From positions 1 to 64,000 of the IMG/VR virus record IMGVR_UViG_3300009703_000012: a DNA stretch of 64,000 nt; one strand, given 5' to 3'. Made by a program: the position numbers and the translations under genes. The notes beneath the pieces were generated by a model, which saw only the letters and a program-made list of their open reading frames with translations, was not told the origin of the DNA and did not search any database. Source of the stretch: a virus. Position 1 is the first letter of the stretch. Each line of letters begins with the position of its first letter. Of the stretch, positions 26,955 through 50,742 are shown one piece after another.

Positions 26955-26974
26955 AACATACTTTTTTTTAATTT

Positions 26975-29483: not shown

Positions 29484-29484
29484 G

Positions 29485-30345: not shown

Positions 30346-30347
30346 TA

Positions 30348-32633: not shown

Positions 32634-33333
32634 GATAATATGTTACTCCTGTATGAGCCATTTGTATTCTTTTTTTATTCCAAGTAGCATGATCAATTCC
32701 TTTAATAGTATGATTACCAGCATCCATAAACATAATCATACTGTGTCTTTCTTTTTTTGTTTTATTCGTTATTCTATGCGGAGTAGATTTTAATTTATTA
32801 TCTGACCAAATCTGCATAAAATCACCTATATTCACAATCAAAAAATCATCACTAGGATGATTTATTGTTCTCCATTTATCATCATAAAATATTTCATATT
32901 CTTCTACAGGATCACAAACATGAACAAGTGTTAAAGTACCAAAATCACAATGTTCTCCTACTCTTATTGATCCTTTCTGATCTTTATAATATTTAACCAA
33001 TCTCAAAGCATTATCAGAATCAGCATGTTTCATTGCAATAGAATTTGGAGGAACATTTAAAAATTCTTCAATAACATATAAAATTTCACATCCCACTTTT
33101 AAAAATCTTTGTTTAATATTATCACAATTTTTTAATATAATTTTTCTATACCCCTCTTCAGTTTCTTCTAATTCGTTTAATTGTATTTTAAGTTTTTCTT
33201 TAAAAGAAAGTAAACCTTCTTTCATATCTATGAAGGGATGATTAATTACTAAAAATCCCGAATCAATAAAACTAGAAATAATATTTTTATTATTCCATTC
33301 AGAAGGGATTGTATAGTCTAAGGTTTTTATCAC
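32608..33333 (-). CDS. 2-oxoglutarate/Fe(II) oxygenase, isopenicillin-N-synthase-like
   Basis: A 241-residue jelly-roll oxygenase. The iron triad is visible: EHCD gives H128 and D130, and TPHRI gives H186. The co-substrate R-x-S motif is R196-H-S198. The HxD is followed by FGTLTLVH, the typical IPNS/plant 2OG-oxygenase pattern. It is shorter than usual (about 300), missing most of the N-terminal subdomain. It starts with GTG in a GTGA overlap with the AcpS stop. Placed between carrier-protein genes and desaturases, it may hydroxylate, desaturate or cyclise the acyl intermediate. Confidence 0.82.
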   Translation of the reverse strand: MIKTLDYTIPSEWNNKNIISSFIDSGFLVINHPFIDMKEGLLSFKEKLKIQLNELEETEEGYRKIILKNCDNIKQRFLKVGCEILYVIEEFLNVPPNSIAMKHADSDNALRLVKYYKDQKGSIRVGEHCDFGTLTLVHVCDPVEEYEIFYDDKWRTINHPSDDFLIVNIGDFMQIWSDNKLKSTPHRITNKTKKERHSMIMFMDAGNHTIKGIDHATWNKKRIQMAHTGVTYYHDKGIVQI

Positions 33334-33758
33334 AAAGGATTAACTCCTGTAATAACTATTGCGACCACATAATCTTTTGTATCAGATAAAGAAAGTCTAA
33401 TATCTTGTCGTTTCAAATTCCAATCTTTGGGTTCCATAACACAATGAACAACAGGAAATCTTGCTCCTCTAGCTTTTAAATGTGTATAACTAACATCGAG
33501 TCTCAAATATGGAGATGCAATTGCTTTTGAAAATGCTTCTTTAACACACCAACATTTTGTTAAATATTTTGCAGTTATGGGATTTGGTGCATTTTTCTTT
33601 TCTATATCTGTTAATATTTTATTAACAAATTTATCACCCCATTTATCATATATTTTTTGAATGGGTTCTATTGTTTGTAAATCTATACCCAAGCCATTTT
33701 CTATTGTCATCGACAAAATTCTATTACGAATATCGTGTTTATCTTTTCCCCAAATCAT
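33330..33758 (-). CDS. acpS: Holo-ACP synthase, AcpS-type phosphopantetheinyl transferase
   Basis: A 142-residue protein of AcpS size. GLGIDLQTIEPI carries the metal-binding Asp (D26), and KCWCVKEAFSKAI carries the Lys/Glu pair (K73, E74) that completes the Mg-CoA site. SLSDTKDYVVAIVI matches the C-terminal strand. The spacing from Asp to Glu (48) is that of bacterial AcpS. It should transfer 4'-phosphopantetheine from CoA to Ser41 of the ACP encoded three genes upstream. A phage bringing both ACP and its activating enzyme suggests the ACP is poorly served by the host enzyme. Confidence 0.9.
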   Translation of the reverse strand: MIWGKDKHDIRNRILSMTIENGLGIDLQTIEPIQKIYDKWGDKFVNKILTDIEKKNAPNPITAKYLTKCWCVKEAFSKAIASPYLRLDVSYTHLKARGARFPVVHCVMEPKDWNLKRQDIRLSLSDTKDYVVAIVITGVNPL

Positions 33759-34783
33759 ATTTTTTCTAATAATATAACATCAACCTGAAAACCTGGCCCA
33801 TAAGAAATCATAACTGTTTTGCCATCTTTATCAAAATCATGCTGTAAAGTTTTTATTACTGAAGTTGCAGACATATTTCCAAAATTTCGAAATAATTCAA
33901 AAGATGAATCCAAAGCACCTTCAGGTAAATTAAGCCCCTTTACAGTATTTTCTAAAACAATTTTTCCTCCTGGATGACATATCCAATTATTAATAGTATG
34001 ACCTTCAATAAATTCTTTAATTTTATCATTAAATGCCGCAGATGCTTTTGGTATTTCTTGCAATTTAGTTGATTCTACATGATATAATAATCCTTCACTT
34101 AATCCTTGAAGAGTAATATAATCTTCTGTATCTGGTAAAACATATGACACATGTTTATGTAATTTCCATCCTGGTGCATCATTATAATTATCTCCTGCAA
34201 TTAAAATAGCACTAATTCCATCACCAAATATTACAGATCCAAAAACAGTTGTTAATGTAGCATGTTCAGGACACAAATTCATTGAACATAAATCGTTAGT
34301 CATTGCTATAACTAACTTGTCTGGATTACCTTTTAAATATTCATTTGCTATTCCTAAAATATGAGTGCCTCCATTACATGCTAGACCAAACATGGGTATT
34401 TTAATCATTGATTCTGGAAAATTAAATTCTTTTAATATTGTATGGGGAATCGTAGGAATACCAACACCTGTCATAGTAGTTGATGTTAACATACAAACAT
34501 CTTGTGGATTAAATTCCAATTCCTTTACACATTCTAATGATAATTTTATAGCAACTTCATTAAATGTTTTATTTTTTTGAGTAAACGTTTGAGATTTTTC
34601 TCTCATCTCCTCTCGATTATAACAAGCATATCGAGTTTCAACACCCGTTAATGGAAGATATCTATCAAAAACTCTACCCGAATATCCTTTTTCTTCCCAC
34701 CATAATTTTAATTCTGCGGCAAAATCTTTATTATGATGTTCATTTTCAGGATGTCTAGTTGCTATTTGTAACACCTTGCTCAT
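33755..34783 (-). CDS. Type III polyketide synthase-like (chalcone/stilbene synthase family) condensing enzyme
   Basis: A 342-residue thiolase-fold enzyme. The catalytic triad is complete: Cys136 in MFGLACNGG, His270 in ICHPGGK and Asn303 in FGNMSA. The 33-residue His-Asn spacing and the PGF/GPG end (YGPGFQVDVILLE) match the chalcone synthase family rather than FabH. FGDGISAILI near 186 is the family's FGDGAAA segment. It would extend an acyl starter with malonyl units, giving alkylpyrone, resorcinol or beta-keto products, or carry out a single condensation. Known members accept fatty acyl-CoA, which fits the desaturases downstream. Both ends are coupled by ATGA overlaps. Confidence 0.85.
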   Translation of the reverse strand: MSKVLQIATRHPENEHHNKDFAAELKLWWEEKGYSGRVFDRYLPLTGVETRYACYNREEMREKSQTFTQKNKTFNEVAIKLSLECVKELEFNPQDVCMLTSTTMTGVGIPTIPHTILKEFNFPESMIKIPMFGLACNGGTHILGIANEYLKGNPDKLVIAMTNDLCSMNLCPEHATLTTVFGSVIFGDGISAILIAGDNYNDAPGWKLHKHVSYVLPDTEDYITLQGLSEGLLYHVESTKLQEIPKASAAFNDKIKEFIEGHTINNWICHPGGKIVLENTVKGLNLPEGALDSSFELFRNFGNMSATSVIKTLQHDFDKDGKTVMISYGPGFQVDVILLEKI

Positions 34784-35397
34784 TTTGCCTCCAATGTCAT
34801 TTCTCTTACTCTTCCACTATGATTTAACATAAAGTCTATAGCATCTATACATTCATCTGTACTCAACATTGTTCCAGTTGTTTGCTTAACAGGATCAACA
34901 TCATATAAACGACTTACTACAGTACTTATTCTTGTTGTTCTAGGTGTTTCTACCCAACCAAGTCTTAAATTAGAAACTTTACATCCATGTTTTTTTGCTA
35001 CTTTTTCATGACAGTCTAAATTCATTTTATCAAGAGAAATTTTTCCTACTGAATATCTACTATGACCAATAGGCCATCCATCAGTATCTTTTTCCTGTGC
35101 AATTGAACTTATAGACACAATATGTTTATCGGGTTTATCTGCCCAAACTGAAAAAGAATATAATAATGCATTCGTTTGAGTCCACCATCTCAGATCACTA
35201 TATGCATTATTGATAAAAATATCTGCTTCAGGATCAAACCAATCTTTAATGTCTTGAATATCATGTTGATTATATCTTCTACTGTGACCTTCAACTTCTA
35301 TTACATCTTTATATTTTTGAATATATTTTCCATCATAATATTCAAAAAGTGCTTTTCCTAAACCAGAACTCACACCTGTTATCATCATTTTTTTCAT
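34780..35397 (-). CDS. Short-chain dehydrogenase/reductase
   Basis: A 205-residue Rossmann oxidoreductase. The nucleotide-binding TGVSSGLG is at 7-14, the NNA motif at 63-65, the catalytic Ser in SISSIA near 97, and Tyr115-x3-Lys119 in YSVGK. It is about 40 residues shorter than typical SDRs, with a compact region after the glycine loop. In this setting it may reduce a beta-keto group formed by the condensing enzyme. It overlaps the condensing-enzyme gene by 4 nt. Confidence 0.88.
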   Translation of the reverse strand: MKKMMITGVSSGLGKALFEYYDGKYIQKYKDVIEVEGHSRRYNQHDIQDIKDWFDPEADIFINNAYSDLRWWTQTNALLYSFSVWADKPDKHIVSISSIAQEKDTDGWPIGHSRYSVGKISLDKMNLDCHEKVAKKHGCKVSNLRLGWVETPRTTRISTVVSRLYDVDPVKQTTGTMLSTDECIDAIDFMLNHSGRVREMTLEAK

Positions 35398-35398: not shown

Positions 35399-36523
35399 TT
35401 ACCTCACTAGATCATTGTTTTTCCATTCTCTTTTGGGGAATTTTGGTTGAATATATTTTTTAAAAACCATATTCTGTTCAGCTATAGATTTAACACCAAG
35501 AGTTTCCTGTATGTCTTTTCTCATTTCTTCAAATTGTGTTTTATAAGGCTCTTGGGAATAATAATTATATCCATCAGGAATTAACTGAGCATAATCACAT
35601 GGTTCTCGATAAGCCACTCGTTCAATGGGGGATCCTTGTCTATTATGCAAAGTAATACAATTATCAAAAAGTAATATATCATTATTTCTTTCATACTTGT
35701 GATGATAAGTATATTCATCTACAAATAATTCTTTGTCTAAATCATCTAAAAATTTAGTTCTCTCTACTGTACCAGGAGAATAATGCAGACCTTTTATTCC
35801 TCCAGGGGTTGTAATAACCAGTGGAAGTTCAATCGGTTCAAACGTTTGATTCCAACGAAATGAATCATCTTGATCTTTATTTAATTCAGGAGCAGTTTCA
35901 TAATTTTGATATTTAAAAATAACAGTCATATCATCTAATTCTCTTTTAAAAGAATCTCTTTGCTTTTCGTACCAAGTTGCAGAACAAACAAATCCTGTTG
36001 AAGACCCCACCATTCCTTTTATGCCCATGAGTGCAACACCAGGAGTAAAGCAAAGCGAACCCGCTTCATTAGAATGCCAGCCCAATTCTCCTTCAGCAAA
36101 CATTCCCATACTTCTCCCATTCTCTTTCATACCAGTTATACGAATTAAATGAGAATCAGCAGGAACCTCTTCTTCTGTAAAATTATCCCCTGCCGCAATA
36201 TACCACGTTAAATTTTCTGCATGTCGGCGATCTTCTTCTTCTAAAAGATCACGTTTGAATAATGTATATAAATTAGATATTCCTAATTTTTTTTCATATT
36301 TTTTCTTAATACGATATCCATCTATAACATATGGGGCGCCCCATAAATACATCTTACGTTCAAATTCAGATGGTTGAATATCTACATTTCTAATAATTGT
36401 AACTAAATCTGTAAGATGTTCTTTTCCTAATTGCATCCAATCATTATCAGACATTTCTGCTAATGATACATCATCTATAAATACACCATAGTCACCAAGT
36501 CCTGATATTTTACTTTTTCTCAT
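35399..36523 (-). CDS. TauD/TfdA-like Fe(II)/2-oxoglutarate dioxygenase
   Basis: A 374-residue protein with the TauD-type fold pattern: an early LVTIIRNVDI strand, the metal motif GWHSNEAGS (His150), the distal His in FDNCITLHNRQG (His293) and the arginine region RVAYREP (around 302-306). The usual HxD is HSN, with Glu153 next to it, so either the Asp position has changed or Glu serves as ligand. It is about 90 residues longer than TauD. It starts within the end of the ACP gene (14-nt overlap), which points to direct coupling. A likely task is hydroxylation or desaturation of an ACP-bound substrate. Confidence 0.8.
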   Translation of the reverse strand: MRKSKISGLGDYGVFIDDVSLAEMSDNDWMQLGKEHLTDLVTIIRNVDIQPSEFERKMYLWGAPYVIDGYRIKKKYEKKLGISNLYTLFKRDLLEEEDRRHAENLTWYIAAGDNFTEEEVPADSHLIRITGMKENGRSMGMFAEGELGWHSNEAGSLCFTPGVALMGIKGMVGSSTGFVCSATWYEKQRDSFKRELDDMTVIFKYQNYETAPELNKDQDDSFRWNQTFEPIELPLVITTPGGIKGLHYSPGTVERTKFLDDLDKELFVDEYTYHHKYERNNDILLFDNCITLHNRQGSPIERVAYREPCDYAQLIPDGYNYYSQEPYKTQFEEMRKDIQETLGVKSIAEQNMVFKKYIQPKFPKREWKNNDLVR

Positions 36524-36893
36524 ATTGGCTCATTTCATAAACCCCTGTACCTGCTTCTTTATCTTTCTTTAGTTGTTCTAATAATCTGTTTCTAGCTTTT
36601 TCATCATCGCCTGCTTCTTTTTCAAGTTCTTTAATTTTAGCTCCTTGTTTTATTTTTACTTCAACTAAATCATAAAGATCCCTTACAGTAGTTGCTTTTT
36701 GAAATTCTTCAGCATCTAACATAATATCAAATTCATCTTCAATAAGAATCATAGTCTCTAAAATATGAATTGAATCAATATCAAGATCCTGTGCTATATT
36801 TTTTTCTGGTGTAATTTCTGGGAAGGAAAGGCCCATGCCTGCTTCATCAAAAGCGTCTTTACACTTTTGTTCAATTTCTTCTCTAGTAACCAT
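36510..36893 (-). CDS. Acyl carrier protein with a charged C-terminal extension
   Basis: About 127 residues from the ATG of MVTREEIEQ, chosen because GAGGAA stands 5 nt upstream and it avoids overlap with the previous gene. The carrier domain spans about 1-82: DLDIDSIHILETMILIEDEF has the attachment Ser41 in a DSI motif (DSL is usual), followed by the acidic recognition helix. Residues 83-127 are a Lys/Glu-rich helix not found in ordinary ACPs, possibly a docking tail. Activated by the AcpS encoded nearby, it should carry the growing or desaturating acyl chain. Confidence 0.9.
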   Translation of the reverse strand: MVTREEIEQKCKDAFDEAGMGLSFPEITPEKNIAQDLDIDSIHILETMILIEDEFDIMLDAEEFQKATTVRDLYDLVEVKIKQGAKIKELEKEAGDDEKARNRLLEQLKKDKEAGTGVYEMSQYEKK

Positions 36894-36909: not shown

Positions 36910-37893
36910 TTATTGTGCCATATCAAACTCTAGCATTTCACATGCGGCTTCAAAATTTTCATTTGTTTTATCGTCTGGACGACTTACATATGCTTCTCTA
37001 ACATATGCTAATAAATCTGTCAATTGAGATGTATTGAGATTTGAAATGGCAGTAGTGTTTTCGGTATCAATTTCATCAAATATTTTTGATGGTTCAGAAT
37101 ATCTCAAATGAACATTACTTAACTTGATAATATATATGAACTTAGAATAAGTAGAACTTATAAGTTTATTATGTAATGATATACAATTTGATGGCAACCA
37201 ACTTAAACTAGAAATTTGAGAATCATTTGGTCCAGCTATATTACCATCAGGAGTTTGAGCAGTTTCAGTTGTATACCAAGTTTTTCCTTTTTCATCAATT
37301 GCATTAATTAAAATTTTCATTGCGATTTCCCATCTCATATCACTATTAAACCATGATATATCTTTAGAATCCATATAGTCAAGAGGTAATACTGGTGCAT
37401 CATCTACAATAAATGGATCACCACTAACATCAGATCCTCTTTGATATGCAAAATATAAAACTCTATCAGTCCATTGATCTTCGGTTACTGCAGTTTTTAA
37501 ATAATATTCTTTATTTGTTTTTAATATATTTAAAATTTGATCATATTTATCGGATTCGCTTCCATTAGCAAGGTCAGTAATCTTGGAATCATTCTGAGAA
37601 GCCTCCCAATCAGGGCTACCTAAATCTTCATAAAATCCCAATTCTTCTCCTTTAGATCGTTCTTCATTCGTTGTTGATACATATGGTCTCTGACAAGCAA
37701 AGCCCGAAACTCGATCAAGCCATTCGTTTTCTGTAGTTCCATTTTCTAAATAATATTGTTTATTTAATTTTAATAAATCTAAAATTTGATCAAATTTATC
37801 AGGCTCACTTCCATTAGCAAGTGAAACAATTTCGTTATCACATTTTACAGTTTTCCATGTTGAATTTCCAGGTATATCATTGAATGCCATCAT
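36910..37893 (-). CDS. Hypothetical protein with two internal repeats
   Basis: A 327-residue soluble protein. Residues near 20-70 and 105-155 are an obvious duplication: LANGSEPDKFDQILDLLK and LANGSESDKYDQILNILK, followed by NK(Q/E)YYL and then (E/D)xxWxDRVxxFAxQR in both. The second half (DSKDISWFNSDMRWEIAMKILI and on) is helical and unlike the repeats. No family recognised. It lies directly before the ACP gene in the operon, so it may be a scaffold, docking or substrate protein for the pathway. Confidence 0.6.
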   Translation of the reverse strand: MMAFNDIPGNSTWKTVKCDNEIVSLANGSEPDKFDQILDLLKLNKQYYLENGTTENEWLDRVSGFACQRPYVSTTNEERSKGEELGFYEDLGSPDWEASQNDSKITDLANGSESDKYDQILNILKTNKEYYLKTAVTEDQWTDRVLYFAYQRGSDVSGDPFIVDDAPVLPLDYMDSKDISWFNSDMRWEIAMKILINAIDEKGKTWYTTETAQTPDGNIAGPNDSQISSLSWLPSNCISLHNKLISSTYSKFIYIIKLSNVHLRYSEPSKIFDEIDTENTTAISNLNTSQLTDLLAYVREAYVSRPDDKTNENFEAACEMLEFDMAQ

Positions 37894-38144
37894 TTGTCCG
37901 CTAAGTCGTTATATTTATCTCTCATTCTTTGCCAAAGAATTAAGCCCGTTGTTGAAAATTCTATATGATCTGCTAATAATTCCACATTTTTATATGAATC
38001 AAGAGAAACATCAAATCTTGATTTTGTAGAATCTAATAAATCAACTATACGAGAATATTTATTTGAAATATTACTTTCTTCTAATTTTTTTATCTTAGTA
38101 AGAACTGCAATAATATTAATAGAGGATAAATTAACTACTGTCAT
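37890..38144 (-). CDS. Small hypothetical helical protein
   Basis: About 84 residues from ATG (a GTG seven codons upstream is the alternative, deeper inside the previous gene). It is helical throughout, KIKKLEESNISNKYSRIVDLLDSTKSRFDV. Its end couples to the repeat-protein gene through ATGA. Its composition and size resemble those of the repeat unit in its neighbour, but I cannot show homology. Function unknown. Confidence 0.5.
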   Translation of the reverse strand: MTVVNLSSINIIAVLTKIKKLEESNISNKYSRIVDLLDSTKSRFDVSLDSYKNVELLADHIEFSTTGLILWQRMRDKYNDLADK

Positions 38145-38862
38145 TTTCAAGTCCAGTTGGTTCACCAGGCATAATAACAGGTTGACTAGGATCTAACGCA
38201 AATTGCTTGTTTTCTTCATTTAAAGGAGTTTCTTGCTGTACATCATTTTGAGGAGCTTGTTGCTGTGATTGTTGTGGTTTTGGTCTAGGAGAAACTCCAA
38301 TACCCAATTCTGTATCAATAAAGCCTGTAACCTCATCCATTGCCTCATCAAGAGATTTAGTATCTTGTTCTTTTCTTTCTTTATCAATAAATTTAATATA
38401 TTCTTTTGGATTTCCTTCTGCTTTAATCAAAGTCTCTTTACATTGATTATCACAGTATTTGTGAAATTCAGAAGCAAATTGACAATTACAAAGCATTCCT
38501 TTTACATATTCTATTTCATTACCATCTTTGTCTGTAGTTACAGGATTAGATTCATGATTATCCATCATTTCTAATTCCTTTAATGTTTCATCTACTAATC
38601 CCTGTACCTTATTTTCTTGCTCTATATCTTTCTGAAAATTTTGAGGAACGGTTCCTGGAGGAGAAGCCCCACTTACTCTTATTTGATTGTTCGCTCCACT
38701 AGACTCTCCTTTAGCATCTGCTGACAACATACCTAAACCCAAGTCAATTGCTTTTAATAATACATGACCTATATGGCGTGTTTTTTCATTATCTAATAAT
38801 GGAACTAATGCTTGTATTGCTTCATTAGCGTGTTTTTTAATCAATTCATGTTCTTCAGCCAT
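38131..38862 (-). CDS. Hypothetical protein with a Cys-rich centre
   Basis: About 243 residues from MAEEHELIKK, with an AGGAG site 6 nt upstream; an earlier in-frame ATG lies within the radical SAM gene. A helical start (20-50) is followed by a disordered stretch, then a short Cys-rich segment CNCQFASEFHKYCDNQC near 130-146 that could bind a metal or be a modification target. A Gln/Pro-rich, disordered C-terminus follows. It stands directly after the third radical SAM protein, so a role as its partner is possible. Confidence 0.55.
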   Translation of the reverse strand: MAEEHELIKKHANEAIQALVPLLDNEKTRHIGHVLLKAIDLGLGMLSADAKGESSGANNQIRVSGASPPGTVPQNFQKDIEQENKVQGLVDETLKELEMMDNHESNPVTTDKDGNEIEYVKGMLCNCQFASEFHKYCDNQCKETLIKAEGNPKEYIKFIDKERKEQDTKSLDEAMDEVTGFIDTELGIGVSPRPKPQQSQQQAPQNDVQQETPLNEENKQFALDPSQPVIMPGEPTGLENDSS

Positions 38863-38870: not shown

Positions 38871-40247
38871 CTAACAAGAAAGACTTTTTCCGTCTTCCGC
38901 AAATTTTGTTTCTTGTAAATGTTCTGTTCCAGATCCTTGACCAAAGGTATCAACTATACCTAAACGATCAAACATTGTTTTTGGTAACCCAGCTTTAGGT
39001 AATTCTCTTTCTATTTCGGGATCTGCATCTGGAAAATCAAAGAACTCTTCTCCAACTCTTACATTCACATTTTGAATTCTAGCAAGACCTTGTTGACTAT
39101 AATAAAATCTATGATCTTTCTTTTCTCCACATGAATTACACATATCACAAAATAAACTACACACAGGATAATTTATTAAATTTCTTCTCCATTTTTCTCT
39201 AAGCCAATCAATTTGTTCTTTTAATAACCATTTAATTTTTGCTTCATCTTCTGGCGTTTCGCCTTCTGCACACTTATTATCTAAAGATGTTACAACTCTA
39301 TCTGGTCCATATGTCGTTGCTATATGAAACATATCTTTTGCAAAACACATTACATTTGATCTATGAATAGTATATCTACATCTCCACCGTATTTGATCTT
39401 CACGGGATTTGTCTTTATTGTATTCCATAATATTACCAAAACATTTTAATACATCAAGAGTTGAATCTTTCCCAGAATAATAAACTCTATCTTGACTTCC
39501 AACTCCATCAAAACTAATATCAAAAGAAACTCTTTGTTTTATTTCAGGATGCTCTTCTAAATATGCGGTCACTTTTTTAAAAAAAGCAGGCTTACTTAAT
39601 AATATACCATTTGATGTTATATTAAAATGACAATTATGTTTTGATTTATAAGCATAATCCATTAAAAATCTACAATTCTCCCATTCCATCAAAGGTTCAC
39701 CACCAAAAATACAATAAAGAGTTTGTTCATCAGGTCTATCTGATTCCATAATATTATCGATAAGATTGGCTATTAAAGGAGGTTCGGGTAAATGTTTAGG
39801 TCTTCCTTCTAAATGCTGATAGCAATAATTACAATCTAAATTACATTGACTTGTCATATAAAATAAATGAATTGCACCACCATGTGCAACTCTTGTTTTT
39901 TCATTTTCTCCATGTGTAAAATGTCTATCATAAATTTCACTAACAGTTGCTTCTTCAGTTTTTATTTTTCCCTGTTTTAAATCTTCAATACGATGTCGAT
40001 GTCTATCTGTTGAAACAGATTCAAAATTTTCTTTTACTACTTCATTTAATTTTCTATTCGAAATTTCTCTAATTTTTGAATCTGGATTTTTTGCAAGACT
40101 CTGTTCCTGAATAGTTGCCAATTCATGAATCTTATGGGTTGTATATGGTTTGCATATACTCTCTCCATCATTCAATCCTCTTTCATAATCAATAATATCA
40201 TCCAATTTACTAAATTCTGGACAAATTTTATCTGAACGGGATCTCAT
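38871..40247 (-). CDS. Radical SAM protein 3, divergent C-terminus
   Basis: A 458-residue protein. The radical SAM cluster motif is CNLDCNYC (C135, C139, C142), followed by IFGGEPLMEW (SAM-binding GGE) and FDISFDG. About 125 residues precede the core, a possible peptide-recognition domain. The C-terminal part has CSLFCDMCNSC near 366-378, a compact cysteine set that could hold an auxiliary iron-sulfur cluster, and the final residue is Cys. It differs from the other two radical SAM proteins in both ends, so it probably does a different step. It is encoded by ATGA coupling with the small gene before it. Confidence 0.88.
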   Translation of the reverse strand: MRSRSDKICPEFSKLDDIIDYERGLNDGESICKPYTTHKIHELATIQEQSLAKNPDSKIREISNRKLNEVVKENFESVSTDRHRHRIEDLKQGKIKTEEATVSEIYDRHFTHGENEKTRVAHGGAIHLFYMTSQCNLDCNYCYQHLEGRPKHLPEPPLIANLIDNIMESDRPDEQTLYCIFGGEPLMEWENCRFLMDYAYKSKHNCHFNITSNGILLSKPAFFKKVTAYLEEHPEIKQRVSFDISFDGVGSQDRVYYSGKDSTLDVLKCFGNIMEYNKDKSREDQIRWRCRYTIHRSNVMCFAKDMFHIATTYGPDRVVTSLDNKCAEGETPEDEAKIKWLLKEQIDWLREKWRRNLINYPVCSLFCDMCNSCGEKKDHRFYYSQQGLARIQNVNVRVGEEFFDFPDADPEIERELPKAGLPKTMFDRLGIVDTFGQGSGTEHLQETKFAEDGKSLSC

Positions 40248-40507
40248 TTTTTTCTTTCCTTATATTTTTTAATTATGTAGGACATATTTCTCATTAATCC
40301 TGCAAAATCTAAATTATATTTAAATAATGGCTCATGACCTATTCCCTCTTCTCCGGATTCATATTCGAAACTTCTCTTGAGTAAATTTTTATCTCTAGCT
40401 TGAACTTTATCAGGAGTTTCTTCATCTTGCAATTGTTTTATTATTGCATTGATATCACCTTCACGGGCCGCCTTTTCTGAAATTTCTTTTCGTTCATCTT
40501 TATTCAT
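40244..40507 (-). CDS. Small hypothetical protein between radical SAM genes
   Basis: An 87-residue charged, helical protein (ERKEISEKAAREGDINAIIKQLQDEE) with a conserved-looking FKYNLDFAGLMRNMSYIIKKYKERKK end. It overlaps both neighbours by a few nt or less. The size would suit a RiPP-recognition-type or helper protein, but it does not show the RRE winged-helix pattern. Function unknown. Confidence 0.5.
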   Translation of the reverse strand: MNKDERKEISEKAAREGDINAIIKQLQDEETPDKVQARDKNLLKRSFEYESGEEGIGHEPLFKYNLDFAGLMRNMSYIIKKYKERKK

Positions 40508-41175
40508 TATGGCTCCGTAATAAGTGGTGCGGTTGGAAATGTATCATACACTTTTTTATATCTATAGAACTTTTCTAACCACTCTTTTCTCTGTTCATCT
40601 GTTGCTCTATCTACAAGATGCCAAACATTTCTATTTGCAGATATCCATTCTTCAGCACTTATATTTTTACCTGCGACAATTTCAGGATCATCACCATAAA
40701 ATTGTTCAAATATTATACAACCTTGTTCAACCGGACTAAGTAATTCCCAACTTAAAGTGCCTTCTTCTTCGTATGTAGATTTATTTAAGTCCCCCGTTAA
40801 TTCTTTAGTATCTTTAAAATCTATTACATTATTATGTAAATTCTTTGGAAGACTTGACATATAATCATATCTCAAATCTTGTGAATATAGAATTTTATCT
40901 ATTACATTTCTAAACATTTTTCTATTTAATTGTTTTTTAGATACTATAATTACATATTCATTTTTTCTTATTGCTCCACCCTCTATAGTTCTATATAAAA
41001 CTTCATTCATCACATCAACATTAATTTTTTGATCATAATCTAAAACAACCATTGTAGTATCTTTATGTTGATATACTGTTAAATCTTTTTTATCTAATAA
41101 TTGACCAGGAATATATTTTGGTGGTCCATCTCCTTGGTTAACTCTTGGATCTATTACAGGTTTATCAAATATCAT
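40507..41175 (-). CDS. Hypothetical protein between radical SAM genes
   Basis: A 222-residue soluble protein. Its first half is alpha/beta (DTTMVVLDYDQKINVDVMNEVLYRTI, NEYVIIVSKKQLNRKMF). The second has a helical segment with DPEIVAGKNISAEEWISANRNVWHLV. It is translationally coupled to the second radical SAM gene (4-nt overlap) and to the next small gene. No recognised family. It may be a partner or substrate-handling protein for the adjacent enzymes. Confidence 0.5.
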   Translation of the reverse strand: MIFDKPVIDPRVNQGDGPPKYIPGQLLDKKDLTVYQHKDTTMVVLDYDQKINVDVMNEVLYRTIEGGAIRKNEYVIIVSKKQLNRKMFRNVIDKILYSQDLRYDYMSSLPKNLHNNVIDFKDTKELTGDLNKSTYEEEGTLSWELLSPVEQGCIIFEQFYGDDPEIVAGKNISAEEWISANRNVWHLVDRATDEQRKEWLEKFYRYKKVYDTFPTAPLITEP

Positions 41176-42398
41176 GCTGGTAATGATTCCACAAATGATT
41201 GATGTTCACTATGTTTCATCTGTGAAACTTCTAGCATAGAAAATAAATCTTTCTTTTCCTCTATTTCAAAAGGAGTATAAAAGTCTCCTCGACCCTTAAA
41301 TAATTTTCCAATATAATCTTGAAATGTTGGAAAATCTTTACACTCTTCAACAATTCTTATTGCTTCATCATAGTACATATGAAATAATTCACAAATAGAA
41401 TCTACAGGTGTATTTCCATTTCTTATCTGCGAATATGTACAACCTGCATTACATACTTTATATAGATCACACCCCTTACATTTATTATATGTTTTAGGAT
41501 TAAAAATATGTTGAAAATATGAAAAATTATATTCATCTCCTTTCATAGGTAAAACTTTTTTAGATCCAAATCTAGCACATGGATAAAATTCTCCTTCTAC
41601 TGACATAACTGAACCGCTCACTCCTGCAAAACATCCAAATGGTCTCTTGTTTTTAGTAATACCCAATAACATATCTTGTAATGGTAAATTAAACATTCCA
41701 TTAACTGCTAAAATTCCTTTAGAAAGATATTCTATTTGTTTATCTGCTAATCTTCTAACCTCTCTTCTAAAATGTTGTAAATCATCAATAGACCAAATAT
41801 CATCTCTTACAATAGAAAAATCTGGACAAGGAATTCCAAAATCAACTAAAAATTCAAAATTTTCTGTCATTGCATCAACATTAGCAGGAAAAATCATCAC
41901 TTTACATGTCTTACTATATTTTGTCAGTCTTCTAATCAAATGCTGTTTTTCATTATACATTTCAAACACACTTGAATATCCTTTATTTTCTCCCATATTT
42001 TTAATTACAGGTCTAGACTCATTTGAAGATATTCCATCAAAACTCCAACTTATTCCTACTCGATTTTCTTCTAACCAATCAGCAATCTCATCATTTATTA
42101 ATGTCATATTTGAAATAATTGATAATGCATGAAGTCTATCAGAATGTTCGCCTCCTCTTAATTTTTTTGTAGCGTGTTTAATTAATGGCATATTTAAAAG
42201 AGGTTCACCACCAAAAAATGTTAAATGAAATCTTCCTCTAGCATCAGCCTTTGATCTATCTACTAACTTTATAAATTCAGGCCATGCTTTATCAAACACT
42301 TCAGGTGTCATAAATTTGTCTTGATTTGCAACATAACAATATGGACAACCAAGATTACATTTTTCTGTTACTGACACTTCTAAATGATATTCAGGCAT
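41172..42398 (-). CDS. Radical SAM/SPASM protein 2, peptide-maturase-like
   Basis: A 408-residue protein. The cluster motif CNLGCPYC (C14, C18, C21) sits at the very N-terminus, followed by LTFFGGEPLLNMP. The SPASM-like region has C256, then C274 in EFYPCARFG, CKGC (C307, C310), VCNAGC (C316, C320) and C336, the set that binds auxiliary 4Fe-4S clusters in anaerobic sulfatase maturases and RiPP-modifying enzymes such as PqqE or sactisynthases. There is no obvious N-terminal recognition domain. Together with the Cys-rich heptad protein encoded two genes upstream, it is a candidate thioether-forming or epimerising maturase. Confidence 0.92.
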   Translation of the reverse strand: MPEYHLEVSVTEKCNLGCPYCYVANQDKFMTPEVFDKAWPEFIKLVDRSKADARGRFHLTFFGGEPLLNMPLIKHATKKLRGGEHSDRLHALSIISNMTLINDEIADWLEENRVGISWSFDGISSNESRPVIKNMGENKGYSSVFEMYNEKQHLIRRLTKYSKTCKVMIFPANVDAMTENFEFLVDFGIPCPDFSIVRDDIWSIDDLQHFRREVRRLADKQIEYLSKGILAVNGMFNLPLQDMLLGITKNKRPFGCFAGVSGSVMSVEGEFYPCARFGSKKVLPMKGDEYNFSYFQHIFNPKTYNKCKGCDLYKVCNAGCTYSQIRNGNTPVDSICELFHMYYDEAIRIVEECKDFPTFQDYIGKLFKGRGDFYTPFEIEEKKDLFSMLEVSQMKHSEHQSFVESLPA

Positions 42399-42606
42399 AT
42401 TGTAATTCCTTCCAAGGATCTCTACCAGATTGTTTTCTTTGTTGCTCAGTTAATTGATCTTTAAATTTCATATGAAAATTAATTTTAATAGGTTCTTCTT
42501 GACAATTACCAAATTCCACTCTATCTTCCCCACTATAAATTTTACTACAAGTTGTACATCCATCAGAAAGTGCTATTGGGCACTTTTTAGGATCACCTAT
42601 TATCAT
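42391..42606 (-). CDS. Small Cys-containing protein between radical SAM genes
   Basis: A 71-residue protein with four cysteines (C9, C17, C20, C35) arranged as CPIALSDGCTTC then GNC, a possible iron-sulfur or zinc site, followed by a charged helical end (MKFKDQLTEQQRKQ). It is coupled to radical SAM 1 by ATGA and overlaps radical SAM 2 by 8 nt. It could be a small ferredoxin-like helper, a second precursor peptide or a chaperone; the sequence does not decide this. Confidence 0.55.
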   Translation of the reverse strand: MIIGDPKKCPIALSDGCTTCSKIYSGEDRVEFGNCQEEPIKINFHMKFKDQLTEQQRKQSGRDPWKELQYA

Positions 42607-43889
42607 AATTGATGTCCTGTTAATTGTCTATATGCTTTAGATACGGGTTCTAAGGTTTTCCATACAGTACATAATTGATGATTTGCAGTATGATCTTGCC
42701 ATTTTTCACCTACTGTTTTTTCTGGATATTTTGTATCTGATGCATCAAAAGATCCCGCTGGACATTTTAAACAAAAATCTGCAGTACAACTATTACATGC
42801 TAAGGTACCATCTGTTCTAAAATCATTTAAATATGATTGATATGTCGCAGTTGTTTCATCAACAAGTTTTTGTAAAGTATTAGATTTAATATCTCCTCTA
42901 TGATGATCTTCCCTTTGTCGATACATACAACCATGACATGGGTAAGTTTTACCATCAAGATCCAATGATAGATAATTTATTCCTGCTGAACAATTTTGTT
43001 TTTCTCTCTTAAACCATCTAAAAGATTGTGCTAATTCTATTTTATTCTCCATGCTATATTTGACAATTTTCATTAAATTCACTCTTAAATCTTTCATGTG
43101 TTGTGCAAATTCTTCTTCTGGAACTGCGCCATCAGGTCTATCTGGATCCACACTATGGGTATCAGGAGTAGGTCCATAATGTTCTCCTCGATCATGATGC
43201 CACTTCCAAACTTCAAAAAGATATTTAAAATTTCGTGATGAGATAGTAGGTTTCATTCCTACAGAAAATCCATCTTTTTTCAACTCATCATATATTTTAA
43301 GAACAGATGCCGATAATTTTTTACTTTCGCCTTTTTTTGTTCTTCTTTCTTTTGTATTAATAGGCTCACCATCAAAAGAAATTTGTATATGTAATCTATC
43401 TTGCCAAGGATAATCAATTCTCTTACCAAGCATATCTCTAATACCTTTAAGTTGTTTTTTATATTTTTTCAGATAAGTACCATTTGTATAATACATGAAA
43501 TTAACTTTTTTATCATCTTTCAATAATTTCATACAAGTACTTGTAAAATGAAAATTGGCAAAAGGTTCTCCTCCCCACCAATAAACATTTACATCTTTAT
43601 ATTTGTTATAATCTAAGGTTCTTACTGCTTCAACTACTTGCACAGGAGTCATTTCTGTGGGCTCTTGAAAAGCAGAAGAAAGACCACAAGATTCTCCTTC
43701 TGAACAGTAAGTACAAGCAAGATTACATTCACTTGTTACGTTTACATCGAAATTAAAACTCTGCATTGGATTAAAGCCAGGCATTCCTCCATTATTCTTC
43801 TGTTGCTGTTGTGGAGGAGACCACCCTGTACTTGGTGGTGTATACATTTGATTTGGAGCTACAGTTTCTAAGTTGTGTGATTGAGTCAT
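42603..43889 (-). CDS. Radical SAM/SPASM protein 1, next to the Cys-repeat protein
   Basis: A 428-residue protein with a Gln/Pro-rich N-terminus (about 45 residues), then the radical SAM cluster motif CNLACTYC (C55, C59, C62) and VYWWGGEPF. The SPASM-like region has NCSAG (C300), YPCHGC (C318, C321), CNSCTADFCLKC near 367-378 and a last Cys near 409, enough for two auxiliary clusters. It starts 9 nt after the Cys-repeat protein gene, so that protein is the natural substrate candidate. Possible reactions include Cys thioether formation, beta-hydrogen abstraction or epimerisation; the sequence alone cannot tell. Confidence 0.92.
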   Translation of the reverse strand: MTQSHNLETVAPNQMYTPPSTGWSPPQQQQKNNGGMPGFNPMQSFNFDVNVTSECNLACTYCSEGESCGLSSAFQEPTEMTPVQVVEAVRTLDYNKYKDVNVYWWGGEPFANFHFTSTCMKLLKDDKKVNFMYYTNGTYLKKYKKQLKGIRDMLGKRIDYPWQDRLHIQISFDGEPINTKERRTKKGESKKLSASVLKIYDELKKDGFSVGMKPTISSRNFKYLFEVWKWHHDRGEHYGPTPDTHSVDPDRPDGAVPEEEFAQHMKDLRVNLMKIVKYSMENKIELAQSFRWFKREKQNCSAGINYLSLDLDGKTYPCHGCMYRQREDHHRGDIKSNTLQKLVDETTATYQSYLNDFRTDGTLACNSCTADFCLKCPAGSFDASDTKYPEKTVGEKWQDHTANHQLCTVWKTLEPVSKAYRQLTGHQL

Positions 43890-43898
43890 ATTATTTCT

Positions 43899-44492
43899 CT
43901 ATTTTGGACCGAAGTTACAGTTACACGGACAGAAGTTACAATTACAAGGGCAAAAGTTACAGTTGCAAGGACAGAAATTACAGTTACAAGGACAGAAATT
44001 ACAGTTACATGGACAAAAATTGCAATTACATGGGCAAAAGTTACAATTACACGGACAAAAATTACAGTTACAAGGACAAAAGTCACAATTACATGGGCAG
44101 AAATCACAGTTACAAGGACAAAAGTCACAATTACATGGACAGAAATTACAATTGCATACGCATAAAACTTTCCATTCATCAAGATTAGATTCTAACGTTT
44201 CAATTTGAGATGCTAAAATTAGATCACCTGCAGAAACAGTTGGTTGAATTGGTACACCTGTTGTTGGTGTAGTTCCTCCTAAATTATATTCAACTGCGAG
44301 TTGTATTTCATCAAATATTGATGCGGCGATTGGATCGGCATAAGGATCCCAAGTTTCATTAGTTATGGATCTTCTAGTCAATTCATCATTGATAGAAGTT
44401 CTCATTGTATTAATATCAGACTGCTCAACTAAATCATTTAATTGAGAAGCAAGATTAGTCAAATTTGTAGGACATGCTAAGGGTCCAGCCAT
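43899..44492 (-). CDS. Cys-rich heptad-repeat protein, candidate RiPP precursor
   Basis: A 197-residue protein in two parts. Residues 1-110 form an ordinary, mostly helical, leader-like region with a single Cys near 7. Residues 111-197 are CVCNC, eleven copies of the heptad (N/D)FCPCNC, then NFGPK. The first unit has Asn, the next three have Asp and the last seven have Asn. Thus 36 of the last 87 residues are Cys. Units differ at synonymous sites. It is followed 9 nt later by a radical SAM/SPASM gene, which makes it a strong RiPP precursor candidate. Alternatives are a metallothionein-like metal store or a disulfide-rich virion fibre. Confidence 0.85.
   Translation of the reverse strand: MAGPLACPTNLTNLASQLNDLVEQSDINTMRTSINDELTRRSITNETWDPYADPIAASIFDEIQLAVEYNLGGTTPTTGVPIQPTVSAGDLILASQIETLESNLDEWKVLCVCNCNFCPCNCDFCPCNCDFCPCNCDFCPCNCNFCPCNCNFCPCNCNFCPCNCNFCPCNCNFCPCNCNFCPCNCNFCPCNCNFGPK
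43917..44147 (-). repeat. Eleven in-frame 21-nt repeats encoding (N/D)FCPCNC
   Basis: Exactly 231 nt, eleven contiguous 21-nt units with no spacers. All amino-acid positions are invariant except Asn/Asp at the first. Codons for Cys, Asn, Phe and Pro vary freely between units (three different Pro codons, both Cys codons), so the array is kept by selection on the protein rather than by recent slippage. Confidence 0.95.
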
Positions 44493-46011: not shown

Positions 46012-49000
46012 TCATACTTTTACTTCTACAAAATCACCATTACTATTAGTTAATGCTATTCCAATTAAATCATGTTTGTGTGGTTCATATTCATATTTAG
46101 TTATAACTTTTCCAGTTCCATCTTTATAAGCTATAATAAAATCTCCTTTATTACATCCTCCCTCAATCTTAACTAATATTCTTCCTTTCAAACAAATAAA
46201 AAGCATAAATTCATTTTCTCTTTGTATCATACCATCATTCATTCTCAATCCAGGTTTATCTGAAACAACACCAGCATAAGGCATGTCAACTTGATATAAT
46301 GTGACCTCTTTTGTTCCTCCTACTGCTAAAACAGTTCCTGGTTCATATATTTTATCTGATTCATATCTCTCGGCCAAGTCAGACCAGTTTGCTGAAGTTG
46401 CTCTTCCGTTAAATGTAACTGCATACATGTCATTATAAACCATTGTTGCTGAACCAACATCACTCGTATTATTTGCAGAAGGAAGAATATCTACTGTAGT
46501 TAAAGTCCCCCCTACTGTAGTTGCTCCATCAAGTCCAGATGTTCCATGTACTTTAAGATTAGCTAATCCAGTTGCACCACTTGAAGAGTAAATTGGAAAA
46601 TTCATGGCTATCTGAGTTGGAGTTGTAACATCATCTACAAGAAATCCAGAATACGCTCCAAGAGTAGATGATGTTGCATAATATTGAATTTGACCAGCAC
46701 CTCCTGCTGGAAGACTTCCAGAAACACCAGAAGTCCCTGCAGATCCAGCACTTCCTGCAGATCCAGATGAAGCATAAGTTAGTCCAGAAGTACCAGATGT
46801 TCCAGAAGATCCTTCTCCGTGTGTGAGACCAGCATATCCTGCTTGAGTAGTGGGAAAAATTATTTTTACAGTATTAGAATCAATATATTGAGTAGATTCT
46901 GGTATAATAACATTATAATTACCATCAACAACTTCGATATTTAAAGGTCTAGTATTTAAACCATGAGTTATCAACCAGACAAGTGCGGCTGAAGATTGAG
47001 TATGAATGTAAGCACCGCCAGCATTTCCATCAGTTCCATCTGTTCCAGATGTTCCAGCACTCCCTGCACTTCCTGCAGAACCAGAACTTCCTGCAGAACC
47101 AGACGATCCAGCACTTCCTGCAGAGCCAGCACTTCCTGTACTTCCTGCAGATCCAGATGATCCAGCACTTCCTGCAGAGCCAGCAGAACCAGAACTTCCT
47201 GCAGAACCAGACGATCCAGCAGTTCCAGTTTCTCCAGAAGAACCCGATGAACCAGATGAAGCATAAGTTAAACCAGACGATCCTGCAGAGCCAGCAGAAC
47301 CAGAACTTCCTGCAGAACCAGACGATCCAGCACTTCCAGCACTTCCAGCAGAGCCAGCACTCCCTGCAGAACCAGCACTTCCAGCAGAACCAGACGATCC
47401 AGATGAACCCGCAGAGCCAGTAGTTCCTGCAGTTCCAGAAGAACCAGATGAAGCATAAGTCAATCCAGATGAACCAGAAGTTCCAGACGATCCTTCACCA
47501 AAAGTAAGTGCCGCATATCCTGCTTGAGTAGTGGGAAAAATAACTTTTACAGTATTAGAATCAATAAATTGAATTGATTCTGGAATAATTATATTAAAAT
47601 TAGTATCAGTAATTTCTACATTTAGAGGTCTAATATTTAAAGCGTGACTTATTAACCAAACAAGTGCAGGTGTAGATTGAGTATGAAGAAAAGATCCGCC
47701 ATCACGACCAGATGATCCAGCACTTCCTGCAGAGCCAGCACTTCCAGCACTTCCAGCAGTACCTGCACTTCCTGCACTTCCTGCAGAACCCGCACTTCCT
47801 GCAGAGCCAGATGAGCCAGCACTTCCAGAACTTCCTGCAGAGCCAGCGGATCCAGCACTTCCTGCAGAGCCAGCAGATCCAGCACTTCCAGCAGAACCCG
47901 CAGAGCCAGCAGATCCAGAACTACCAGACGATCCAGAAGTTCCTGAGGTACCAACATCACCAGTTCTTGCAACTGTAAAAAGTATATCAGCATCATCAGC
48001 AAAAAATGCGTCTTGTCCACCAATCTTTGTAACTTCTATTTCTTGATAATCTCCTGCATTCGTAAGATCACCAACTGTAAACATTACATATTGACCAGCA
48101 TCAAATAGTGCGGCCAATCTTATATGACCTTTAATTGCTGAAGATGATGCATCAACTTGATCTAGAAAACTTTCAGTATCGGCACCATTTGAATCTGTTT
48201 CACTTATAGAAAGTCTATTAACTGTAGAGAAATCAGTTGGTGCAGATCCAGTATCAATACCTACTTCAAGTCTTCCAGAACCAGGATCACTTGCTGATCC
48301 TGTAAATGAAGTATCTTCAAAAACATATTGAAAAGATGCACCACCAAAGTTTCCATCTTGTCCAGACGATCCAGAAGTTCCTGAAGATCCAGAAGTTCCT
48401 GAAGATCCAGAAGTTCCAGACGATCCTTCACCAAAAGTTATTGCGGCAAATCCTGCTTGAGCAATGGGAAAAATTATTTTTACAGTATTAGAATCAACAT
48501 ATTGAGTGGATTCTGGTACAATAACATTATAATTAGTATCAACAACTTCTATATTTACAGGTCGAGTTCCTAAATTATAAGGTATTAACCAAACAATTGC
48601 AGGTGTAGATTGTGTATGAATGTAAGATCCACCATCACGACCGGATGATCCAGCACTCCCTGCAGAGCCAGCGGATCCAGCACTTCCTGTAGAGCCAGCA
48701 CTTCCTGCACTTCCAGCACTTCCTGAAGAACCAGCAGAACCAGATGAACCAGCACTTCCAGCACTTCCTGCAGAGCCAGCGGATCCAGCAGAACCAGCAC
48801 TTCCCGCAGAGCCAGATGATCCTGCAGAACCAGCACTTCCTGAAGAACCAGATGTTCCAGAAGTTCCAGTAGTTCCTGACGAACCAGATGATCCTGCAGA
48901 ACCAGCACTTCCCGCAGAGCCAGATGAACCAGATGAAGCATAAGTGTATCCAGAAGAGCCCGCAGAACCAGCAGAGCCAGCACTTCCTGCAGAGCCAGCA

Positions 49001-50742
49001 CTTCCTGCACTTCCAGCACTTCCAGCACTTCCTGCAGAGCCAGATGAACCAGCACTTCCTGCAGAGCCAGCGGATCCAGATGAGCCAGCGGAACCAGCAG
49101 ATCCAGCACTTCCTGAAGAACCAGCACTCCCAGATGATCCAGAAGTACCAGATGATCCAGATGAAGCATAAGTCAATCCAGACGAACCAGATGATCCAGA
49201 CGATCCTTCACCAAAAGTTACCGCCGCATATCCTGCTTGAGTAGTAGGAAATACTATTTTTACATTATTTGAATCAATATATTGAATAGATTCTGGATAA
49301 ATTACATTATAATTATCATCAACAACTTCTATATTTACAGGCCTAGTATTTAAATTATAAGGTATAAACCAGACAAGTGAAGCTGAAGATTGAGTATGAA
49401 TATAAGATCCGCCATCTTGTCCAGAAGATCCAGCACTTCCTGCAGAACCCGCAGAGCCAGCACTTCCTGCAGATCCAGATGAACCAGCAGATCCAGCACT
49501 ACCTGCAGTTCCGTGTGTTCCTCCTGCCCCCGAAGAACCAGCACTTCCTGCAGAGCCAGCACTTCCAGCAGAACCAGCACTTCCAGCACTACCCGCACTT
49601 CCCGCAGAGCCAGCGGATCCAGATGAGCCAGCACTTCCCGCAGAGCCAGATGATCCTGCAGAACCAGCACTTCCTGAAGAACCAGATGTTCCAGAAGTTC
49701 CAGCATCACCAGTTCTTGCAAATGTAACAATTATGTCTTCATCATCATCAAATAATGCAGTTTGTCCTCCTATTTTCGAAACTTCTATTTCTTGAAAACC
49801 CGAATCATTAGTAACATCCGAGATAGTAAACATTACATACGTACTTGTATCAAATTTTTTCGATATTCTTACATGTCCTTTAATTGCGGATGTTGCACCA
49901 TCAACTTGATCTAGAAAACTTTCAGTTGATGTACCATTTACATCAGCTTCACTCATAGAAATTCTATCAACTGTAGAAAAATCTGTAGGTGCAGATCCAG
50001 TATCAATTCCTACTACAAGTTTACCAGAACCTGGATCACTTGCGGCGCCTGTAAATGTTGTATTTTCAAAATCATATTCAAAAGATTGACCACCAAAATT
50101 TCCATCTTGTCCAGATGTTCCTGCAGTTCCAGAAGTTCCAGTAGTTCCAGAAGTTCCTGCAGAACCAGAAGAACCAGCACTCCCAGAACTTCCTGCACTT
50201 CCCGCAGAGCCAGATGATCCTGCAGAGCCAGCACTTCCTGTAGAACCAGTAGATCCAGATGATCCAGCAGTTCCACCCATTCCCGAAGAACCAGAAGTTC
50301 CTGCAGAACCAGAAGTTCCAGAAGAACCCTGTCCATAAGTTATGGCGGCATATCCTGCTTGTGAAGAAGTAAATACTATTTTTACATTATTTCCATCAAT
50401 AAATTGAATAGATTCTGGTATAATAACATTATAATTATCATCAACAACTTCTATATTTACTGGTCTAGTTCCTAAACCATGAGTTATCAACCAGACAAGT
50501 GAAGCTGAAGATTGAGTATGAACAAAAGAACTACCATCTTGTCCAGAAGATCCAGCACTCCCTGCAGAACCCGCAGAGCCAGAGCTTCCAGATGAAGCAT
50601 ATGTCAATCCAGACGATCCTGCAGAACCAGCAGAACCTGCAGATCCAGCACTCCCCGCAGATCCAGCAGAGCCAGCGGAACCAGAAGTTGTTTTCTCTTT
50701 TAAACTATAATCTGCGTATTCGCCTTTAAGAAATAGTGCCAT
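46012..50742 (-). CDS. Giant Gly-Ser-Ala repeat tail fibre protein 2
   Basis: A 1576-residue fibre protein. Long GSAGSAG/GSSG/GTSG tracts, periodic in three like collagen (Gly at every third residue) and silk-like in composition, link folded modules. Module A (about 70 residues, starting [11 protein letters not shown], with VWLI, RPxNIEVVD and PESxQ) occurs five times; module B (about 130 residues, starting GNFGGxSFEYDF and ending [12 protein letters not shown]) occurs twice. The C-terminal 130 residues ([21 protein letters not shown] and [14 protein letters not shown]) resemble the shaft-terminal or chaperone domain of cyanophage fibres. It probably forms a trimeric receptor-binding fibre. 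Confidence 0.85.

Follow-up and report, generated by a model that had tools for sequence, protein, structure and literature searches.

A marine phage operon appears to encode its own protein-modification system, in which three radical SAM enzymes would cross-link a cysteine-repeat protein that we propose to be a tail-fibre-like component of the virion; we put the probability of this reading at roughly two in three. The operon lies in the window, by which we mean the whole 64,000-nucleotide stretch analysed (positions 1 to 64,000 of IMG/VR record IMGVR_UViG_3300009703_000012), and all genes given coordinates below are on its minus strand.

A cysteine-repeat protein encoded beside three radical SAM enzymes

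The proposed substrate is a 197-amino-acid protein (43899..44492). As the first-pass annotation had counted, its last 87 residues (111-197) contain 36 cysteines and eleven [ND]FCPCNC units; the whole protein has 37 cysteines. Across 20,000 codon shuffles of the ORF, the largest unit count was 1. CxCxC-N-[YF] describes the unit better, and its grammar is strict: cysteine spacings run 2,2,(3-5), and insertions are confined to the linker after the aromatic residue. Units share 81% nucleotide identity on average (range 67-95%) and differ synonymously, with two to three codons in each of the Cys, Pro, Asn and Phe columns, so the repeat has been kept as protein and not merely as DNA. Ahead of the array, which runs as CxCxC-N/D-F repeats to the C-terminus, lies an N-terminal part (about residues 1-108) that is predicted to be helical. 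The repeat and an E-x-x-RR motif are conserved in a 23-row alignment (A12). AlphaFold modelled the window protein poorly (pLDDT 36.9), and that model was not used.

The profile of phrog_26958, the family of gp140 from Campylobacter phage CP220, matches residues 88-158 of the 197 (1.7e-19, subject to a low-complexity caveat); a profile comparison of the N-terminal part with gp140 was not significant. Whole-protein tblastn against phages gave no match, which means little because low-complexity masking applies, and the link to CP220 came from PHROGs and annotated 21-bp repeats rather than from tblastn. The P-type heptad pattern had 0 matches in 84,980 cellular genomes, Y/T-type patterns lying outside that scan. 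Aligning the leader against viral contigs yielded matches in six contigs only, all found before.

On Pfam score and motif, rSAM1 (42603..43889, 428 aa), rSAM2 (41172..42398, 408 aa) and rSAM3 (38871..40247, 458 aa) are members of the radical SAM superfamily: each has an intact CxxxCxxC and exceeds the PF04055 cut-off of 29.5 bits (51.7, 51.0 and 32.2 bits, respectively). They had been described as two SPASM proteins and one divergent protein, and the cysteines agree with this. The seven-cysteine C-terminal SPASM pattern is present in rSAM1 and rSAM2 (in rSAM2, in full, as C256, C274, C307, C310, C316, C320 and C336) and absent in rSAM3, whose C-terminal cysteines form a four-Cys CxxxCxxCxxC motif alone (363-373); on these patterns, the SPASM label would fit the first two enzymes and not the third. 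In Pfam terms the assignment is less clean, with rSAM1 alone scoring, at 21.4 bits against a PF13186 (SPASM) cut-off of 21.5 and rSAM2 giving no match in a Pfam SPASM search.

Compared with characterized families, all three look like peptide or protein maturases. The best solved structure for rSAM1 and rSAM2 is 5wgg, which we take to be the thioether-forming maturase CteB. QhpD (TIGR03906), the quinohemoprotein amine dehydrogenase maturase, is the second-best model for rSAM2 at 96.4 bits, far below its cut-off of 453. QhpD installs thioethers in a subunit that remains part of a larger protein; it is bacterial and acts as one maturase, whereas the phage system has three. The ranthipeptide maturase PapB (NF047865), whose substrate is a Cys repeat like the one proposed here, heads the NCBIfam matches of each enzyme (77.5, 142.5 and 53.6 bits for rSAM1, rSAM2 and rSAM3), all far below its cut-off of 340. 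The published PapB linkage joins Cys to Asp/Glu, whereas the array in the window protein has N/D, Y/F and T/P around its cysteines. In a tree, each enzyme falls in its own clade (r1, r2 and r3 for rSAM1, rSAM2 and rSAM3), every clade holding marine, Campylobacter and other members. Alignment of rSAM2 to cellular genomes, a search that detects close relatives only, returned no relative.

These genes are tightly packed, as had been reported: rSAM1 starts 9 nt after the repeat gene and subsequent genes overlap by 1-8 nt. Between and beyond the enzymes lie further genes. The small Cys-containing orf71 (42391..42606) had no match among Pfam, NCBIfam and PHROGs models and shares 51% identity over 57 aa with the gene in the same place on contig L003. 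Next come orf222 (40507..41175), of the same family as o284 (26148..27002), its paralogue, and orf87 (40244..40507), a small protein that other phages also keep in the interval from rSAM2 to rSAM3; its HMM matches in freshwater-type operons reach E 2e-6 to 6e-21 in rows outside the model. Downstream of rSAM3, orf243 (38131..38862) carries a conserved CNCQ...YCDNQC motif and is 49% identical over 179 aa to a protein of contig L004, to which orf327 (36910..37893) also has a match at 34% identity. The o243 and o124 families occupy the same place in operons, with no detectable relatedness. The first-pass annotation had bounded the system at 38871-44492; the genes there are confirmed, but the operon continues nearly gapless to about 25194, with one 96-nt gap (27003-27098), and is 19 kb long in the marine branch. 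Counts of the T4 late-promoter word TATAAATA were uninformative (11 found against 11.95 expected).

The repeat and the enzyme trio co-occur across phages

The same repeat is present in 39 further IMG/VR contigs from 26 lineages, and 37 of the 39 encode a radical SAM protein (PF04055). The case named beforehand as telling against a RiPP-type system, a repeat protein without any radical SAM gene, was seen in the remaining two, which belong to one lineage and are short (22.7 and 16.1 kb), ending 872 and 1,579 nt past the repeat gene. Thirty of the 39 contigs were searched with the enzyme models, the nine left out being near-copies or Firehammervirus. Strong matches numbered 26 for rSAM2, 25 for rSAM1 and 26 for rSAM3, with all three in 24, among 30 records that include CP220, itself in the models. 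Among 13 other T4-like contigs (15 for rSAM2), six of the 13 being shorter than 13 kb, there were no strong trio matches.

In every one of the 26 records tabulated, no more than 1.4 kb separates the repeat gene from a trio member, and in 24 the distance is 600 bp or less. This table covers 26 of the 39 contigs, after removal of ten near-copies or Firehammervirus (L054, L055, L057, L061, L064, L066, L076, L079, L081 and L088) and of three contigs lacking a strong trio (L056, L065 and L067). On L065 and L067 the repeat gene is followed by an orf222-like gene, not rSAM1, and L056 (G018) has 8 radical SAM genes, none strongly of the trio. Partial trios also occur: G045 has a strong rSAM3 match only, G033 a weak rSAM1 and G040 a weak rSAM3.

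Eleven Campylobacter phages encode the repeat protein together with the full trio. Searching 50,697 phage records for the CP220 repeat protein returned 15 records representing 11 phages, and the same 11 carry close homologues of all three enzymes. CP220 gp140 has the same CxCxC-N-Y array, with enzyme homologues gp136, gp023 and gp099. It differs from the system in the window in that the repeat is internal to a longer Cys-rich protein (534 aa) in a tail-gene region, the enzyme genes are scattered over the genome, and lipid genes were not seen in the three stretches viewed. Co-occurrence across contigs and Campylobacter phages, together with the separate enzyme clades, makes it very likely that the trio and the Cys repeat are an enzyme-substrate pair.

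In its passages on these genes, the CP220 paper notes separately a 21-bp repeat in CPT_0180 and 11 radical SAM proteins, which it takes as metabolic (Timms et al. 2010, PMC2853527); from the annotated repeats, we infer that CPT_0180 is gp140. CPT_0180 is not among the gel bands identified in that paper's figure legend (Timms et al. 2010, PMC2853527). Within the portions of the literature available to us, we found no published link between repeat and radical SAM enzymes. The earlier statement that no such system was known in a T4-like phage was too narrow, as public records have shown it in T4-like Campylobacter phages since 2010.

Features suggesting a possible tail-fibre-like protein

In five of ten related repeat proteins tested, a Peptidase_S74 domain (PF13884), as in phage tail fibre proteins, directly follows the array; other relatives end at CNCNY(S) without it, and a Pfam scan found none in the window protein. 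We know of no Cys array described as part of Peptidase_S74 fibre proteins. S74 domains are not limited to fibres, as their PHROG matches include head and DNA-ejection proteins. Only a helix pattern and, apart from Met1, three invariant positions (E, R and R; alignment A12) tie the N-terminal part of the window protein to the S74-bearing relatives. The N-terminal domain of one relative is predicted to be folded (pLDDT above 90); fold searches with this model gave no match at E 0.001 or better and no virion protein, and VIA-align gave one match (Z 4.1).

Gene neighbourhood points the same way. Tail-fibre-type genes adjoin repeat operons, and upstream of the window's repeat gene is a collagen-like protein (46012..50742) whose C-terminal domain recurs in the annotated CP220 tail fibre (E 1e-10) and is also encoded next to further repeat operons.

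Lipid and polyketide genes in the marine operon

Beyond orf327, the marine operon continues with an acyl carrier protein (36510..36893; PF00550, DSI serine, DSI at residue 40), a TauD-family 2OG oxygenase (35399..36523; PF02668, with HSN replacing HxD/E) and a short-chain dehydrogenase-like gene (34780..35397; PF00106 at 18.2 bits, under the cut-off of 26.6). The next gene (33755..34783) is classed from its sequence as a type III polyketide synthase, having Chal_sti_synt domains (PF02797 and PF00195 above cut-offs) and the Cys-His-Asn residues C136/H270/N303; it scores 77.5 bits against the DpgA model (NF042429), whose cut-off is 425. The only other phage with a polyketide synthase match is Streptomyces phage ZL12 (two records), whose type III enzyme is 22% identical to the window's. 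A 4'-phosphopantetheinyl transferase (PPTase; 33330..33758; PF01648) and a 2OG-Fe(II) oxygenase (32608..33333; PF03171, HCD present) precede seven tandem membrane fatty-acid-desaturase-like genes with His boxes (27099..32633). PF00487 exceeds its cut-off in five of these by protein scan, a genome search adds 27183-27764, and the gene at 28644-29483 was assigned by 53% identity to its neighbour.

Discussion

In our preferred reading, three dedicated radical SAM enzymes, assisted by the small conserved protein orf87, would act on a single substrate, the Cys-repeat protein. That substrate would be a tail-fibre-like virion protein with a folded N-terminal domain and a C-terminal CxCxC-N-[YF] array. 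The enzymes would most likely bond cysteine sulphurs to nearby side chains. The resulting thioethers, within the CxCxC strands or beside them, would make the array a stiff rod or cap, proof against reduction, at the fibre's mature C-terminal end. Where an S74 chaperone/autoprotease follows the array, as it does in many relatives, it would be cut away just beyond it.

Radical SAM/SPASM enzymes adjoining a Cys-rich repeat had suggested a sactipeptide/ranthipeptide-type RiPP pathway, and part of this stands: a Cys-rich candidate substrate is encoded beside maturase-like enzymes, an arrangement characteristic of such pathways. Their likeness to PapB and 5wgg, along with natural-product-like genes in the same marine operon, would also suit a secreted product, with the N-terminal 108 residues serving as leader and the array cleaved away, modified and then released, as a signal or a toxin that could for instance exclude other phages. 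We consider this improbable, and the natural-product part of the claim is not supported, given the S74 domain after the array in half of the relatives tested, the array's internal position in the 534-aa Campylobacter protein and the N-terminal part of one relative, predicted as a folded domain and not a short leader; moreover, no exporter or maturation peptidase (leader removal) family was seen among the tested operon proteins, several of which lack any family match. Thirty-six cysteines in CxCxC order could instead bind metals or Fe-S clusters or staple a rod through disulphides, the radical SAM enzymes having other substrates and merely travelling along. Some repeat phages do encode numerous further radical SAM genes (7-16 in the seven contigs of 190-214 kb), yet one phage after another has the same three enzyme clades beside the repeat, and the Firehammervirus set is complete although its genes are scattered, which makes this alternative quite unlikely.

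A separate question, arising within the cross-linking reading and not competing with it, is what the lipid genes are for. As the carrier protein, PPTase, polyketide synthase, oxygenases and desaturases share the operon, the marine fibre protein may carry, or travel with, an unusual acyl or polyketide product. There is close to an even chance that the peptide and lipid/polyketide modules are unrelated and simply share a transcript, the latter altering host lipids during infection. Trio and repeat do occur elsewhere without adjoining lipid genes (two operons examined in full); against this, both modules stand in one run in two distinct marine viruses, and a third related virus (G007) keeps the run from rSAM2 onward. 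The fullest version of our proposal we offer only tentatively: a fibre tip covalently cross-linked in phages of several hosts, with one radical SAM enzyme per Cys of each CxCxC strand, and coupled in the marine branch to a carrier-protein, type III polyketide synthase and desaturase pathway that would yield a hybrid lipid-RiPP appendage or product.

Radical SAM genes that had no explanation in some phage genomes gain a concrete candidate substrate, and the cultured Campylobacter phages bring the core claim within reach of proteomics. If the claim is true, the combination of this system with a carrier protein, a PPTase, a polyketide synthase and seven desaturases in a single phage operon would be a striking case of viral natural-product biosynthesis, and the strict CxCxC-N-Y array with its three dedicated enzymes would make a new cross-linking toolkit. 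Fibre-tip cross-linking by a phage's own radical SAM trio would, to our knowledge, be a new form of virion protein maturation, in which radical chemistry makes the virus particle harder; we know of no other case of radical SAM enzymes in that role.

A repeat gene heads a 26-gene operon

The 197-residue Cys-rich repeat protein (43899-44492, minus strand) bears eleven [ND]FCPCNC units, and its last 87 residues hold 36 of its 37 cysteines. The first radical SAM gene, rSAM1 (42603-43889), starts 9 nt downstream; in both respects we agree with the first-pass annotation. Because the units of the gene differ synonymously, the protein repeat is what selection maintains. The candidate RiPP system had been placed at 38871-44492, which does hold the repeat gene, rSAM1, rSAM2 (41172-42398) and rSAM3 (38871-40247), but the operon is longer, running on the minus strand from 44492 to about 25194. 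It comprises 26 genes with gaps of at most 16 nt (sole exception, 96 nt), at 29.9% G+C versus 33.4% in the remaining window. The stretch past rSAM3 opens with three genes of unknown function and one for an acyl carrier protein (ACP), followed by a TauD-type oxygenase and an SDR-like gene scoring under the Pfam cut-off. A type III polyketide synthase and a PPTase come next, then a 2OG oxygenase gene and a run of seven desaturase-like genes.

The repeat and the enzyme trio co-occur across phages

In a PHROGs search, the repeat matched phrog_26958. Its counterpart in Campylobacter phage CP220, gp140, is a 534-residue hypothetical protein with six annotated 21-nt repeats, and contains CLCDCNYCTCDCNYCTC. 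We found gp140 in 15 records representing 11 phages (IBB_35 is one phage spread over several contig records), and these are the same 11 that hold homologues of rSAM1 (25% identity), rSAM2 (34%) and rSAM3 (27%). Two Campylobacter phage records, HE815464 (CP21_105) and OP654737, annotate the repeat protein as an N-acetylneuraminate pyruvate lyase, probably wrongly.

Scanning for the Y/T form of the repeat yielded 41 contigs, 39 of them new. An N-terminal part bearing an E-x-x-RR motif is common to many of the encoded proteins; the array comes after it, and an S74 domain is often present as well. PF04055 was found in 37 of the 39 new contigs, which collapse into 26 lineages (repeat protein, 90% identity), 25 with a radical SAM gene. 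Across 30 records, strong profile matches (E below 1e-60 for rSAM2, 1e-48 for rSAM1 and 1e-27 for rSAM3) were obtained for rSAM2 in 26, rSAM1 in 25, rSAM3 in 26 and all three in 24. Control contigs with T4-like genes, retrieved for a different gene (n = 13, 6 of them under 13 kb; 15 for rSAM2), gave no strong trio match (best E 2e-6). In 24 of 26 tabulated records, 8-583 bp separate the repeat gene from a trio member; in the other two the distance is 1.1-1.3 kb. The enzyme tree splits into r1 (97/85), r2 (core of 22 rows, 100/100) and r3 (97/86), with a few weak paralogues outside.

Contigs L063, L070 and L069 carry four, three and two tandem repeat-protein paralogues, whose middle parts differ as if diversified. 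L071 combines the longest array (25-28 units) with five divergent radical SAM genes, and may therefore carry a separate variant of the system.

Array anatomy, predicted cross-linking and proposed virion location

Among 39 non-redundant proteins, Cys spacings were 2 (608 times), 3 (209), 4 (56) and 5 (3), ordered 2, 2, then 3-5; of the 329 CxC segments, 302 contain a Cys triplet. The repeat unit is thus C-[TP]-C-[ND]-C-N-[YF], with insertions confined to the linker past the aromatic residue. That position is Y or F in 256 of 261 units, preceded by N in 247. Every other Cys would lie on the same face of a strand. In S74-bearing members, the array runs into S74 through CTCNCNY-SD-x-RLK. S74 domains self-cleave at their own start, so the mature C-terminus of these members would be the array; several other members terminate plainly at CNCNY or CNCNYS.

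We infer that the trio would cross-link this array; one enzyme for each Cys of the triplet is a speculative division of labour. The small gene orf87, kept between rSAM2 and rSAM3, may partner the enzymes in substrate handling. PapB, the nearest family model for the trio, is reported to form a thioether. The next-ranked family model for rSAM2 is QhpD and the nearest PDB entry for rSAM1 and rSAM2 is 5wgg, both of them thioether formers.

We argue from gene context that the repeat protein would reside in the virion, because of the S74 fusion, the tail-fibre-type neighbours and the position of CP220 gp140 among tail genes. The C-terminal domain of the neighbour genes recurs in CP220 gp103, an annotated tail fibre (E 1e-10), and one neighbour has a sub-threshold Peptidase_G2 match. 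The IBB_35 study reports 38 identified virion proteins. At 46012-50742, the window encodes a collagen-like protein with long GSA/GSS arrays; its C-terminal domain is common to other phages' proteins, one annotated as a tail fibre.

The operon is a variable insert with a lipid/polyketide extension

The heptad pattern matched six contigs in IMG/VR: L001, L004 and L005, one virus, all with the same repeat protein; L003; and L002 and L006, whose assemblies stop either within the Cys repeat gene or close to where it ends. Given these breaks, the repeat family is probably under-counted in assemblies. In all four contigs that continue past the repeat, rSAM1 directly follows. L004 retains the entire set. 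Its repeat gene is followed by rSAM1, rSAM2, two further genes, rSAM3 and another three; an Asp/Asn-hydroxylase-like oxygenase gene then precedes those for ACP, SDR, polyketide synthase and PPTase, and in the end part come three desaturases with a 2OG oxygenase among them, an orf222-family gene, TauD and a Rieske oxygenase.

For comparison we used the window's capsid-type protein (20301-21641), called gp23 from gene order. Virus G007 (L034/L048), with a 97% identical capsid-type protein, has a diverged version of the operon, its contig beginning in an oxygenase and rSAM2. In L033 (78% identical), no cluster matches were found at the corresponding place, where tail-fibre-like-looking proteins sit instead. 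The operon is therefore a variable insert, with fibre genes on one side and head genes on the other.

A three-gene block (134, 194 and 180 residues) upstream of the repeat gene in the window (44500-45994) lies at the far cluster end in L004 and L028, a block movement. The uncharacterised orf222 family has members at both operon ends (40507-41175 and 26148-27002, the latter weakly matching phrog_21654), and also in L004, L065 and L067. The desaturase-like tandem (27099-32633) numbers seven in the window versus three in L004, a lineage-specific expansion.

The window's ACP has a DSI serine, its type III polyketide synthase Cys-His-Asn and its desaturases His boxes; with the PPTase and 2OG oxygenases they make up a coherent acyl/polyketide pathway, as predicted from sequence, which extends the operon in this marine branch. 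The TauD-family oxygenase (35399-36523) has HSN at residue 150, where the family norm is HxD/E, and might be inactive or catalytically unusual; L016 also has H-S-N.

The enzyme families of the parts, and radical SAM protein maturation as a kind, are already known. What is new is a conserved trio-plus-substrate set in phages, the Cys array and its probable fibre role.
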